Shown here: piece after piece, positions 36,510 through 50,034 of the stretch
Layout of the letters: every line of letters begins with the position of its first letter
Position numbering within the stretch: position 1 is the stretch's first letter
Source: BD2-11 clade cluster bacterium bin43
GTDB lineage: Bacteria > Gemmatimonadota > Gemmatimonadetes > Longimicrobiales > Gaopeijiaceae
NCBI GenBank assembly: GCA_002238605.1
Contig: MPMR01000005.1
Span: forward strand, 62,001 to 126,000
DNA length: 64,000 nucleotides
Direction: 5' to 3'
Notes under the pieces: model-generated
The model's input: the letters and a program-made list of their open reading frames with translations, nothing else
The model's database searches: none
What the model was told of the DNA's origin: nothing
Position numbers and translations under genes: made by a program

Positions 36510-37625
36510 TCAGTCGAGCAGTCGGAGGGGCATCACCAGGCAGAGGTAGTCGATCGCGTCCGCGTCCTCCGCGGGCACCGGCTCGACCGTTGCAGCACGC
36601 TCCGGCGCCTTGAATCCCAGCCGCACATCATCCGTGGGCATGTGCTGCAGCACCTCGATCAGATAGCTGGCGTTGAACCCGATTTCGAGGTCGTCGCCCT
36701 CGTATCCGAGATCCACTTCGTCGTAGCCCTCGCCCAGATCGGGAGTACTCACGCTCAGGTTCATCCGGCTACCGGAAAAACTGAGCTTGATCCGGTGCGT
36801 CTGATCGCTCGCGACAACGTCCATCCGCTTCACGGCCGCAAGCAGGCTGTCCTTGTCGACCACCGCGAACTTGTCGTTGTCCTTGGGGATTACCTGCTTG
36901 TAGTTGGGGTAGGTGCCGTCGATCAGCCGCGTGAACACCTCGGTCGCCCCCGAACGAAATCCGAGAAAGTTGCCGTCACGGCCCAACTCCAGTTCATCCC
37001 CTTCAGCGAAGAGCCGCTGAACCAGCCTCAATGCCGAGGGGGGAACGATGAGGTTGGAGGCCGCGGGCCCGGACGACTCGGTCTTCACCGTCCTCCTCGC
37101 GAGCCTGTGGCCGTTGGTCGCCACCATTCTCATCTCGTTCCCCCGCAACTCCCAGAGCACCCCGCTCAGGATTGGCCGGCTCTCCTCGCTCGAGACCGCG
37201 AAGGACGTGTTGCGGATGAGCGACAGGAGATCGGCCCCGGACGTGGTCCATGCCTGGTCGAAGTCCAGATGGGGCGACGACGGGAAATCATCAGCTGGCA
37301 GACCGTTGAGCTTGAAGCGGCTCTTGCCGCAGACCAGCTCCATCTGGCTGCCCAGCGTACCGGCCAGCACCGGGCGGTCGGGAAGCGCCCGCACGATCTC
37401 CTGGATCTTCTTCCCCGGGACCGTCAACGAACCTGCCTCCTGAACCTCCGCGGGGACGCGGGTTCGAACCGTGACATCCAGGTCCGTGGCCGTGATCCAG
37501 AGGCCCTCCTCGGTTGCGTCGAAGAGAATGTTTGAGAGAACCGGCAGCGTGGTTCGGGCCGGGACGGATTGGGAGACTGCCGTGAGTCCCTGGTACAGGT
37601 TCTGGCGAGTCAGGGCAAGTTTCAT
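36510..37625 (-). CDS. dnaN: DNA polymerase III beta subunit (sliding clamp)
   Basis: A 371-aa clamp protein that encircles DNA and holds polymerase III. The three clamp domains are evident ('MKLALTRQNLYQGLTAVSQS' at the start; 'RLIDGTYPNYKQVIPKD' in the middle; C-terminal 'CLVMPLRLLD', the peptide-binding-pocket end). Length is normal. It lies downstream of dnaA on the same strand, separated by 296 bp that contain the origin-like features. Confidence 0.97.
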   Translation of the reverse strand: MKLALTRQNLYQGLTAVSQSVPARTTLPVLSNILFDATEEGLWITATDLDVTVRTRVPAEVQEAGSLTVPGKKIQEIVRALPDRPVLAGTLGSQMELVCGKSRFKLNGLPADDFPSSPHLDFDQAWTTSGADLLSLIRNTSFAVSSEESRPILSGVLWELRGNEMRMVATNGHRLARRTVKTESSGPAASNLIVPPSALRLVQRLFAEGDELELGRDGNFLGFRSGATEVFTRLIDGTYPNYKQVIPKDNDKFAVVDKDSLLAAVKRMDVVASDQTHRIKLSFSGSRMNLSVSTPDLGEGYDEVDLGYEGDDLEIGFNASYLIEVLQHMPTDDVRLGFKAPERAATVEPVPAEDADAIDYLCLVMPLRLLD

Positions 37626-37921
37626 GTGGATCGGGTCCTGGAGAATTGAGTTGCGTTCTTGAGCGAATCCACGAGAGGTAGTTCGGGTTCTACCCTTACA
37701 TAGCTAATAAGTAGTAGTAGTAGGGGCTGTGGAGTTGTAGACAATGCCTCGCTCCCGTCCGGGTAACCTGCTTCACCCCAACGGTCTCGGGAATGGAGGG
37801 ATGCCGTGGATTCCGGTTGCAAAAGAGCATCCGGTTTTCCATGAATCCACAACGGGGGCCTCGGGAGCGGAGCAAGCCACGAAGTTTCCCCGGTTGTTCC
37901 CCACGGTTTGCACATGGGTCT
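37626..37921. other. dnaA-dnaN intergenic region, candidate oriC unwinding region
   Basis: No gene fits in these 296 bp. It holds a DnaA-trio-like run (37709-37723), two DnaA-box-like 9-mers beside it (37728-37736, 6 of 9; 37736-37744, 7 of 9) and another at 37843-37851 (GAATCCACA, 7 of 9). The dnaN-proximal side (37691-37725) is locally AT-richer than the surroundings. In Bacillus subtilis the unwinding element also lies between dnaA and dnaN. Assignment as origin is inference; boxes are weak. Confidence 0.5.
37709..37723 (+). promoter_or_regulatory. DnaA-trio-like element
   Basis: Five consecutive triplets AAG-TAG-TAG-TAG-TAG fit the DnaA-trio rule (5'-[T/A]A[G/A]-3'). They are followed by a short GC-rich step (37724-37727) and DnaA-box-like sequences, the same order as in the B. 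subtilis unwinding system, with an AT-rich flank on the other side. Confidence 0.55.
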
Positions 37922-46889: not shown

Positions 46890-47803
46890 GCGTTGCTTCG
46901 AACACTCGACTCGGGCGCGGCCTGGGCGCCCTTCTTGGGGATCATCTTGATCGACCGGTGGAAGGCGAGGTCGCCGGCCTGGCGCTGGATTCCGTGGTGC
47001 CCAACCCGTTCCAGCCCCGTCGTGAGTTCAAGGAAGAGGAAATCCGGGAACTCGCGGCGTCGATCAGGGCAAACGGATTGCTCCAGCCCGTTCTCGTCAG
47101 ATCCGCGCCGGTGCCCGACCAATGGGAGCTGGTAGCGGGAGAACGCCGATTCCGAGCTGTCACAAGGCTTGGATGGAGCGAAGTGCCGGCCATCGTGCGC
47201 GACGTAGATGACGAAACCATGCTCGTGCTGGCGCTTGTCGAGAACCTCCAGCGCCGCGACCTCGGCGCGCTGGAGGAGGCTGAGGGCTACAGGGTGCTTG
47301 TGGACAAGTTCAAGCGCACACAGGAGGATATCGCGCTGGCTGTCGGAAAGAGCCGTGCCGCGGTGACCAACATCCTCCGTCTTCTGAAGCTTCCCGCTGA
47401 AGTCCGGCAGCTGCTCGCGGAAGAAAAGCTCACGCCGGGACACGCGCGGGCACTCCTCGCCATCGACGACCAGGAATGGGCGGCGGAACTGGCTCGAATG
47501 GCGGTCGAGGGCGGTTGGTCGGTCCGCAAACTCGAGGAGACCGTGCGCACCCGGCCGACGCGCCCGGCTCCCAATGAAGATGCTCCGGACGACCGCAAGC
47601 GCCGGACCCGGCCGTCGCAAGCGGTGGACCCGGTGTTGAACGCGTTGCAGGAGGAGTTGCGGGGCGCGCTCGGGACACGAGTAGTCGTTCGACGGCAGAG
47701 GGGAAGCAAAGGCCGCATCGAAATCCCCTTCCACGACGATCAGGATCTTGAACGCGTGTTCGCCCTCGTGTCCGGCCGGGAGGTCTCGGATCTTCTGGAA
47801 TAG
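46886..47803 (+). CDS. parB: ParB (Spo0J), parS-binding CTPase
   Basis: A 305-aa ParB. The N-terminal ParA-contact peptide 'RLGRGLGALLGD' is followed by the CTP-binding part with GERRFRA ('LVAGERRFRAVTRLGW') and 'LVENLQRRDLGALEEAEGYR'. A helix-turn-helix ('TQEDIALAVGKSRAAVTNIL') binds parS; the C-terminal 50 residues should dimerise. Its probable targets are the two sites inside mnmG. Confidence 0.97.
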   Translation: MSVASNTRLGRGLGALLGDHLDRPVEGEVAGLALDSVVPNPFQPRREFKEEEIRELAASIRANGLLQPVLVRSAPVPDQWELVAGERRFRAVTRLGWSEVPAIVRDVDDETMLVLALVENLQRRDLGALEEAEGYRVLVDKFKRTQEDIALAVGKSRAAVTNILRLLKLPAEVRQLLAEEKLTPGHARALLAIDDQEWAAELARMAVEGGWSVRKLEETVRTRPTRPAPNEDAPDDRKRRTRPSQAVDPVLNALQEELRGALGTRVVVRRQRGSKGRIEIPFHDDQDLERVFALVSGREVSDLLE

Positions 47804-48605: not shown

Positions 48606-48992
48606 ATGAGCAAACAGCGCCCCGCTTCGCCCCCCGCGTCTCCAGACAACACGATTTCGATCATCGGACCCGGGATGACCGTAGTGGGTGATTGCAAGAC
48701 CAAGGGGACCATCCGCATCGAAGGCAGGGTCGAGGGGGGAGTGGAGGCCGGAAAGGCTGTTGTCGTCGGGAAGGACGGAATGGTCGTCGGCGACATCTCC
48801 ACCCAGGACGCGGTCATCTCGGGAAGGCTCAAGGGTACCCTGAAAATCGGTTCGCGCCTGGAGCTCCAGTCATCCTGCGATGTCGACGGGAATATCGACA
48901 CCCGCCGCATCGTGCTCGAAGAGGGCGCAACGGTCAACGGAACCGTCAAGATGGGAAGCCGAGGCGCCAAGCCGCCCTCTACCCGGGAATGA
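48606..48992 (+). CDS. Bactofilin
   Basis: A 128-aa bactofilin (DUF583). The core (about 15-112) is a right-handed beta helix seen as repeating 'GKAVVVGKDGMVVGDISTQD', 'AVISGRLKGTLKIGSRLELQ' turns; both termini are Pro/Ser/Lys-rich and disordered. Bactofilins polymerise without nucleotide and scaffold wall enzymes, often M23 peptidases, as encoded just upstream. In some bacteria bactofilins also position ParABS, which is also adjacent. Confidence 0.95.
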   Translation: MSKQRPASPPASPDNTISIIGPGMTVVGDCKTKGTIRIEGRVEGGVEAGKAVVVGKDGMVVGDISTQDAVISGRLKGTLKIGSRLELQSSCDVDGNIDTRRIVLEEGATVNGTVKMGSRGAKPPSTRE

Positions 48993-49103: not shown

Positions 49104-49213
49104 CGTGGAAAACCTCTGAAGTCACTATAATATCGACTCTTCGGAAGGTATATCCACGCTCCCCGCAGAGCGTGTTATCCACGCCTCTGTCGTTTTCCAC
49201 AGATCGTGGAAAC
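49104..49213. promoter_or_regulatory. Cluster of DnaA-box-like sequences with a TATAAT
   Basis: Five candidate boxes lie in 110 bp: 49104-49112 CGTGGAAAA (7 of 9), 49150-49158 ATATCCACG (7), 49175-49183 TTATCCACG (8), 49193-49201 TTTTCCACA (8) and 49205-49213 CGTGGAAAC (6). An exact TATAAT sits at 49126-49131. The density is far above the background seen elsewhere in the window. Confidence 0.5.
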
Positions 49214-49248: not shown

Positions 49249-50034
49249 ATGCAAGGTGCCAGGACGAACGAGGGCCGGGGGATGAAGCTGAAAGCGCTCG
49301 TTGAGTATGTCGACGAATACCTCCGCGTGCCCGGCTTCCCGGACTACCCCAACGCCTACAACGGACTCCAGGTTCAGGGGGCGGCCCGGGTTGGCAGCAT
49401 CTGTGCCGCGGTGGATGCCAGTGAAGCCGCCATCAACGCCGCCGCCGAGCGCGGAAGCGATCTCCTGCTCGTGCACCACGGGCTCTTCTGGGATGGCGCG
49501 GCTCCCGTAACCGGCAGACGTTTTCGGAAGCTGTTCGCCCTCCTCCGCAACGAACTGGGTCTTTACTCGGCTCATCTGCCGCTGGACGCACACCCCGAGG
49601 TCGGCAACTGCGCCTTGCTCGCCCGCGCTCTGGACATCGAAATCGAGAAGGGATTCGGCTCCTACCAGGGCGTGGATGTGGGCTGGATCGGGACGACCTC
49701 GGAGACACGCAAGGCCCTCGGCGACCGGTTGGCGGAGTCACTACAAGTGACAGTCCGACTTATAGATGGCGGACCTGACCAGATACACAGGGTCGCCGTT
49801 GTGACGGGTGCGGGCGGGTCCATGATCGCCGAGGCGGCGGCGTCCGGCGCCGATGCCCTCGTGACCGGGGAAGGGGCGCATCATACGTACTTCGATGCGA
49901 TGGAATACGGCATCAACGTTTACTATGCGGGCCATTACGCCACCGAGACGCTCGGGGTGCGCGCGCTCGCCTCCCATCTGGAGGCGCGCTTCGGCATTCC
50001 CTGGGAGTTTCTGGATTATCCGACGGGCATGTAG
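49249..50034 (+). CDS. Nif3-like dinuclear metal-centre protein (DUF34)
   Basis: A 261-aa Nif3/YqfO-family protein. Metal-binding segments are visible: 'LLLVHHGLFWDG' (His pair), 'LYSAHLPLDAHPEVGNC' and the C-terminal 'GEGAHHTYFDAMEYGINVYY' with 'AGHYATET'. Biochemical roles proposed for the family include GTP cyclohydrolase-like activity, but no general function is settled. An internal ATG at 49282 with GGGGG before it may be the real start, giving 250 aa. It sits just downstream of the DnaA-box cluster. Confidence 0.88.
   Translation: MQGARTNEGRGMKLKALVEYVDEYLRVPGFPDYPNAYNGLQVQGAARVGSICAAVDASEAAINAAAERGSDLLLVHHGLFWDGAAPVTGRRFRKLFALLRNELGLYSAHLPLDAHPEVGNCALLARALDIEIEKGFGSYQGVDVGWIGTTSETRKALGDRLAESLQVTVRLIDGGPDQIHRVAVVTGAGGSMIAEAAASGADALVTGEGAHHTYFDAMEYGINVYYAGHYATETLGVRALASHLEARFGIPWEFLDYPTGM

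Follow-up and report, generated by a model that had tools for sequence, protein, structure and literature searches.

A conserved cluster of DnaA-box-like sites beside nif3, outside the likely core origin, as a candidate DnaA sink in one order of Gemmatimonadota

The locus examined here raises the question of why a gap between a bactofilin gene and nif3 should hold a dense group of DnaA-box-like sites, and whether that group is the origin of replication, a site that sequesters the initiator, or a promoter for nif3. Within the 64,000-nt stretch of contig MPMR01000005.1 that was analysed (the window), five such 9-mers were found at 49104-49213, of which two match the reference box (TTATCCACA) at 8/9 positions, two at 7/9, and one, scored by eye, at 6/9 (Table 1). 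This confirmed the starting observation of the sequence-only reading, namely five boxes and a TATAAT hexamer within 110 bp. The scores presuppose that the DnaA of this genus has the common specificity; the DnaA of this genome has the usual three Pfam domains. The cluster sits at the 3′ end of a parA-parB-M23-bactofilin block. The nif3 ORF downstream could open at 49249, but its Pfam match starts only near the MKL at 49282, as do the matches to nif3 of relatives. At the cluster itself, no sigma-70-like promoter pair was detected on the forward strand, and an Rfam search returned no match. An RNA element was considered and rejected; the window copy folds strongly (z = -5.05 as DNA and -3.76 as RNA), which reflects the inverted boxes, and six relatives do not fold in this way (RNA z = -0.14 to -1.78).

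Table 1. Coordinates of the features discussed, numbered from the first nucleotide of the window.
Feature	Position	Strand	Remarks
dnaA-dnaN gap, likely core oriC	37626-37921	-	Conserved in 9/9 genus genomes; contig GC-skew minimum nearby
BUS-like module	37705-37744	-	TTGTCTACA (37736-37744), ACTCCACA (37728-37735), GC spacer, DnaA-trios CTACTACTACTACTTATTA (37705-37723)
Single DnaA box TTTTCCACA	39398-39406	-	About 95 bp upstream of dnaA; in 9/9 genus genomes
parS-like sites (two)	45404-45419, 45454-45469	+	3′ end of mnmG, beside parAB
parA	46086-46889	+	Upstream of M23 peptidase, bactofilin and cluster
parB	46886-47803	+	Upstream of M23 peptidase, bactofilin and cluster
Bactofilin gene	48606-48992	+	PF04519
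DnaA-box-like site TTTTCCACG	49104-49112	-	7/9; position kept in 7/7 genus members as CGTGGAMAA or TGTGGACAA
TATAAT hexamer	49126-49131	+	In 1/7 aligned genus members
DnaA-box-like site ATATCCACG	49150-49158	+	7/9; not conserved in genus
Putative DnaA box TTATCCACG	49175-49183	+	8/9; TTRTCCACG in 6/7 genus members
Putative DnaA box TTTTCCACA	49193-49201	+	8/9; TTTTCCACR in 6/7 genus members
Weak box-like site GTTTCCACG	49205-49213	-	6/9; inverted partner of the 49193 box; not conserved
nif3 (DUF34/NIF3)	49282-50034	+	PF01784

Several other features of this neighbourhood were recorded. Both parS-like sites read TGTTTCACGGGAAACA, with CGGG at the centre in place of CGTG; the assembly holds one further, weaker match, on contig C25, and many relatives have TGTTTCACGTGAAACA without a mismatch close to where mnmG ends. 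The interval between mnmG and parA, which often holds rsmG, is occupied here by an ORF (44953-45873) without a Pfam match, whose product contains LVGVLVGEGHFGGDG, reminiscent of a LAGLIDADG endonuclease. Among relatives outside the genus, many of genomes G011-G057 (e.g., G014:C1:1846914-1848599) have open frames of 600-900 aa with two separate DnaA-ATPase-like matches (~40% and ~35% identity), which are possible tandem DnaA paralogues.

The cluster is the densest spot for boxes in the window. With up to two mismatches allowed, four boxes fall within 110 bp, whereas 60 dinucleotide-shuffled versions of the window gave three at most; the count at one mismatch or fewer (two boxes) was reached by 2 of the 60 shuffles and is not significant alone. 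Across the 4.47-Mb assembly, the motif TTWTCCACR occurs 44 times, compared to 29 for its reversed control. Three of the 44 sites lie within 98 bp at the cluster and form the only triple within 100 bp in the assembly, where about 2e-5 triples would be expected by chance; elsewhere there is one other close pair. The refuting condition named in the sequence-only reading, that such clusters are common in the genome, was therefore not borne out for TTWTCCACR. A scan with TTNTCCAC gave 338 matches, with positions for the first 100 of them, so that the rarity holds for TTWTCCACR and clusters of weaker boxes may occur elsewhere.

Conservation was assessed in families of the same order (f1-f3), the same class (f4-f8), and the same phylum (f9), as well as in named relatives collected via nif3. 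The latter are nearly all MAGs labelled Gemmatimonadetes or Gemmatimonadota; the closest nif3 relatives (~89% identity) include MAGs titled Gammaproteobacteria, which are probably mislabelled. Some genomes are shared between loci L031-L110 and the loci with G handles, and the two sets are not independent. Bactofilin lies 50-450 bp ahead of nif3 in 46 named loci, whose 250-bp target windows contained on average 1.72 boxes (at most one mismatch) versus 0.021 in 2661 control windows. The bactofilin-nif3 gaps of same-order relatives thus retain boxes at roughly 80-fold the local background density, and the conservation in relatives that the sequence-only reading had proposed to check was found. 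At least one box was present in 36 of the 46 loci and at least two in 26; in 30 loci the count was above that of all control windows from the same locus, and in nine it tied. The remainder of the 80 named loci comprised two that were left out (less than 250 bp upstream) and a non-adjacent group of 32, with boxes in four.

When a slightly wider box definition was applied to the 42 of 44 genomes of the order in which both gaps could be read (in the other two, the dnaA locus was too short to show dnaN), at least two boxes were found in the nif3 gap of 31 and none in that of six. The eight genomes of the genus among these have three to four boxes in the nif3 gap and zero to one in the dnaA-dnaN gap, in agreement with the earlier view that the boxes here are the better ones. 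Seven genus members were aligned and inspected visually: the box at 49104 is retained in 7/7 and those at 49175 and 49193 in 6/7 each, and those at 49150 and 49205 are not kept. Sampled genomes of f4, f5, f6, f7, and f9 (n = 14) have at most one box each near parB-bactofilin or nif3. As the cluster is missing from these families and from some genomes of the order, it is not universally needed. Two genomes of the same family, G033 (L134/L219) and G031 (L201), have no box before nif3 and four and six boxes, respectively, in the dnaA-dnaN gap; it is possible that they lost the distal cluster. One Gemmatimonadota MAG (L073, 16325-16464) has three copies of TTATCCACA within 50 bp, ~6.4 kb downstream of nif3.

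The boxes are linked to a position and, in family f8, not to nif3. parB lies at most 6 kb upstream of nif3 in 69 of the 78 named loci with enough upstream sequence, and among these 69, at least one box was found in 41 and at least two in 30. Because the loci were collected via nif3, their linkage to nif3 is biased, and searches based on parB served as a counter-check. In all five f8 genomes searched, no nif3 follows the parB block within the region retrieved; a convergent atpC is found there instead, and the tail-to-tail gap before it carries a tandem box pair (TTTTCCACAGTTATCCACA or TTGTCCACAGTTGTCCACA) in all five. An M23 match was found in 5/5 of these genomes and a bactofilin match in 3/5. 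A nif3 promoter cannot explain the pair in f8, as the pair is present without nif3; it consists of only two boxes and may have evolved independently. In f1-f3, parB and nif3 occur within ~3 kb of each other wherever they are on one contig, and the position of the cluster and nif3 are therefore inseparable inside the order.

These data bear on the proposal that the cluster is a DnaA-controlled promoter, in which DnaA bound on either side of the AT-rich spacer would repress or activate nif3 and couple it to replication. The cluster precedes a gene in most genomes, so this part of the sequence-only reading stands as a possible role; in f1-f3 the boxes lie directly 5′ of nif3, often reaching its start, and they stay with nif3 even where no bactofilin match was found (L048/L144, L073, L210). 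A palindrome in the spacer of many genomes also speaks for this reading, and excerpts of a B. subtilis study describe DnaA as appearing to repress several promoters, including that of the trmE-noc operon (PMC4447404). Against this, the TATAAT occurs in one of seven genus members, a word search of the spacers found no shared promoter-like word besides the palindrome (the rest being coding words, start-codon words, and a minor AAGTTGT), the f8 pair exists without nif3 in a tail-to-tail gap, and the eight sampled f4 and f5 genomes have nif3 adjacent with at most one box. We consider a promoter role unlikely, if worth keeping in mind.

The palindrome spans 25 bp (window 49118-49142; consensus TAAGTCGTTG-N5-CAACGACTTA) and is found between the boxes in many relatives, with copies at L010 2329, L016 2364, and G169:C1:20712 and 20763; in outgroups it lies between mnmG and parB. 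At first it appeared to be an origin-specific element, an idea that was dropped when whole-genome counts showed dispersed copies in Gemmatimonadota (14 versus 4 reversed-control matches in G169, and 10 versus 2 in G035). In the genome studied here it is not enriched (5 versus 5 for the reversed control). Scores of the palindrome PWM within these gaps are partly circular, since the gaps also served as its training set.

The dnaA-dnaN gap differs from the cluster in its architecture. In all nine genus genomes, TTGTCTACA (TTATCTACA in one) is followed in tandem by ACTCCACA, a GC spacer, CTACTACTACTACT, and AT-rich DNA, and the DnaA-trio CTACTACTACTA is unchanged in 9/9. This order of box, spacer, and trio is that of the basal unwinding system (BUS) as given in the consulted sections of two papers (PMC8287927, PMC5295017). 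Runs of at least three CTA/TTA trios (strict test) were found in 25/51 dnaA-dnaN gaps and 0/49 bactofilin-nif3 gaps, against 1/1960 background windows. A box followed by a 12-mer with at most three mismatches to CTACTACTACTA (relaxed test) was found in 46/51 dnaA-dnaN gaps and 0/49 bactofilin-nif3 gaps, two of the latter 49 not being scorable, against 3/240 in the background. The definition of a BUS used here, one or more boxes and then at least three trios within ~16 bp, is stricter than the NAN rule stated in the same source (PMC8287927, in part); no bactofilin-nif3 gap (0/49) and 46/51 dnaA-dnaN gaps contained such a module. In addition, a single box upstream of dnaA (Table 1), whose sequence is the same as that at 49193, probably serves dnaA autoregulation, and its conservation suggests that this sequence is a real DnaA site.

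GC skew points the same way, within limits. Over 204 kb around the window, the cumulative minimum falls at window position 37449, 0.2 kb from the dnaA-dnaN gap and 11.7 kb from the cluster, which does not coincide with the switch. G014, a single contig, has its minimum (3126440) next to the dnaA-dnaN gap; apart from small wobbles, its coarse skew changes sign twice, once at 3.00-3.24 Mb and once around 1.0-1.2 Mb. The minimum of G035 is flat and 15 kb beyond its dnaA-dnaN gap, at neither site, so this genome gives no help in placing the origin. The skew argument is further limited by a change in gene orientation close to dnaA. At four-fold degenerate sites, the skew of the genes from dnaA to the cluster is above both flanks in G000 and G014 and intermediate in G035, a pattern that does not separate the two sites. 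Taken together, the dnaA-dnaN gap is the likely candidate for the core oriC.

Could the cluster nonetheless take part in initiation? Bipartite origins are known, and as in those of B. subtilis and H. pylori there are two DnaA-box regions here, one of them with the unwinding element; DnaA at the cluster would loop to the dnaA-dnaN module and aid unwinding. Two box regions flank the dnaA-to-bactofilin block in many genomes of the order, and because the core boxes of the genus are weak, help from strong boxes is conceivable. However, the published bipartite origins, in the portion of the source available, extend up to ~2 kb with dnaA as the spacer (PMC4285127), as opposed to the 11.4 kb that separate the cluster from the unwinding module here (49104 minus 37705). 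The second region is absent from some same-order genomes, and how many boxes one gap has shows no correlation with the number in the other (Spearman 0.17, p = 0.29, n = 42). A split origin of this kind seems to us improbable. Still less credible is that the cluster is itself the main oriC, the site of unwinding and helicase loading. Its boxes match the consensus better than those of the dnaA-dnaN gap in this genus, its spacer is AT-richer, and the coarse skew of G014 places the origin in this neighbourhood, but the trio modules occur in dnaA-dnaN gaps and in none of the nif3 gaps, and in both G000 and G014 the cumulative skew reaches its minimum next to the dnaA-dnaN gap. The BUS tests and the skew minimum nearly exclude this reading, and the suggestion that the cluster is the real DnaA assembly region was given up. 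A chance group of box-like words, to which the two non-conserved boxes and the unexceptional one-mismatch density might point, is contradicted by the ~80-fold enrichment across the order and the rarity in the genome, and can hardly be entertained.

The explanation we favour, with chances of being right that we judge to be about even, is that the conserved cluster serves as an accessory site for DnaA binding, separate from the core origin, and probably sequesters DnaA; of the three roles first proposed, a titration site appears to fit best. The titration idea was originally put forward for E. coli datA and has been proposed for B. subtilis DnaA-box clusters. Judged by their match to the consensus, the strong and partly inverted boxes of the cluster would be occupied before the weak boxes of the dnaA-dnaN gap, such that free DnaA would fill the sink first. 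Since the cluster is close to the origin, it would be replicated almost immediately after initiation, and this early copying would double the DnaA sinks and delay re-initiation. The distribution of good boxes in the genus, at the cluster rather than at the core, is the arrangement that a titration scheme would need. Compensation between the boxes of the two gaps was also considered and was rejected for want of a correlation across the order.

Among known systems, the closest likeness is to the B. subtilis DnaA-box clusters outside oriC (DBCs), which are also intergenic DnaA-box groups outside the unwinding region; several intergenic boxes outside the unwinding site and denser than background, the mark of an extra-oriC DnaA-box cluster, are what we found. 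The B. subtilis trmE/jag region lies near the origin, within a yidC-mnmE-mnmG-parAB block comparable to the one here; the present cluster instead occupies the opposite end of its block, following parB-M23-bactofilin. As reported, B. subtilis DnaA is bound in a region upstream of trmE that lies downstream of jag (PMC4447404), and removal of six DBCs leads to early initiation (PMC5295017). In contrast to the dispersed DBCs, the cluster is a single site as judged by TTWTCCACR. E. coli datA and DARS1/2 are likewise non-coding DnaA-box groups at a conserved position away from oriC. The cluster differs in lying far nearer to the origin. datA depends on IHF and has its role in the hydrolysis of DnaA-ATP; it comprises five DnaA boxes and an IHF site (PMC4585315).

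Our search of the openly accessible literature, which covered the phylum or bactofilin combined with origin terms, found no study of DnaA boxes in Gemmatimonadota and none of such a cluster. A paper on chromosome architecture in the phylum placed origins by Ori-Finder, and its accessible text does not mention dnaA (PMC11237797). A more far-reaching reading, which we regard as doubtful, is that one order of Gemmatimonadota has an origin whose functions are divided over ~11 kb. A weak-box trio module would lie between dnaA and dnaN, and a site with strong boxes, for assembly or as a sink, would be fixed at the end of the parAB-bactofilin block; DnaA loading, partition, and the bactofilin cytoskeleton would thereby be coupled in a single conserved block. 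For Gemmatimonadota, the analysis supplies a specific candidate for oriC, along with another conserved site of DnaA boxes. A sink this near the origin that persists across many genera would offer a natural way of testing initiator-titration models beyond E. coli and B. subtilis.
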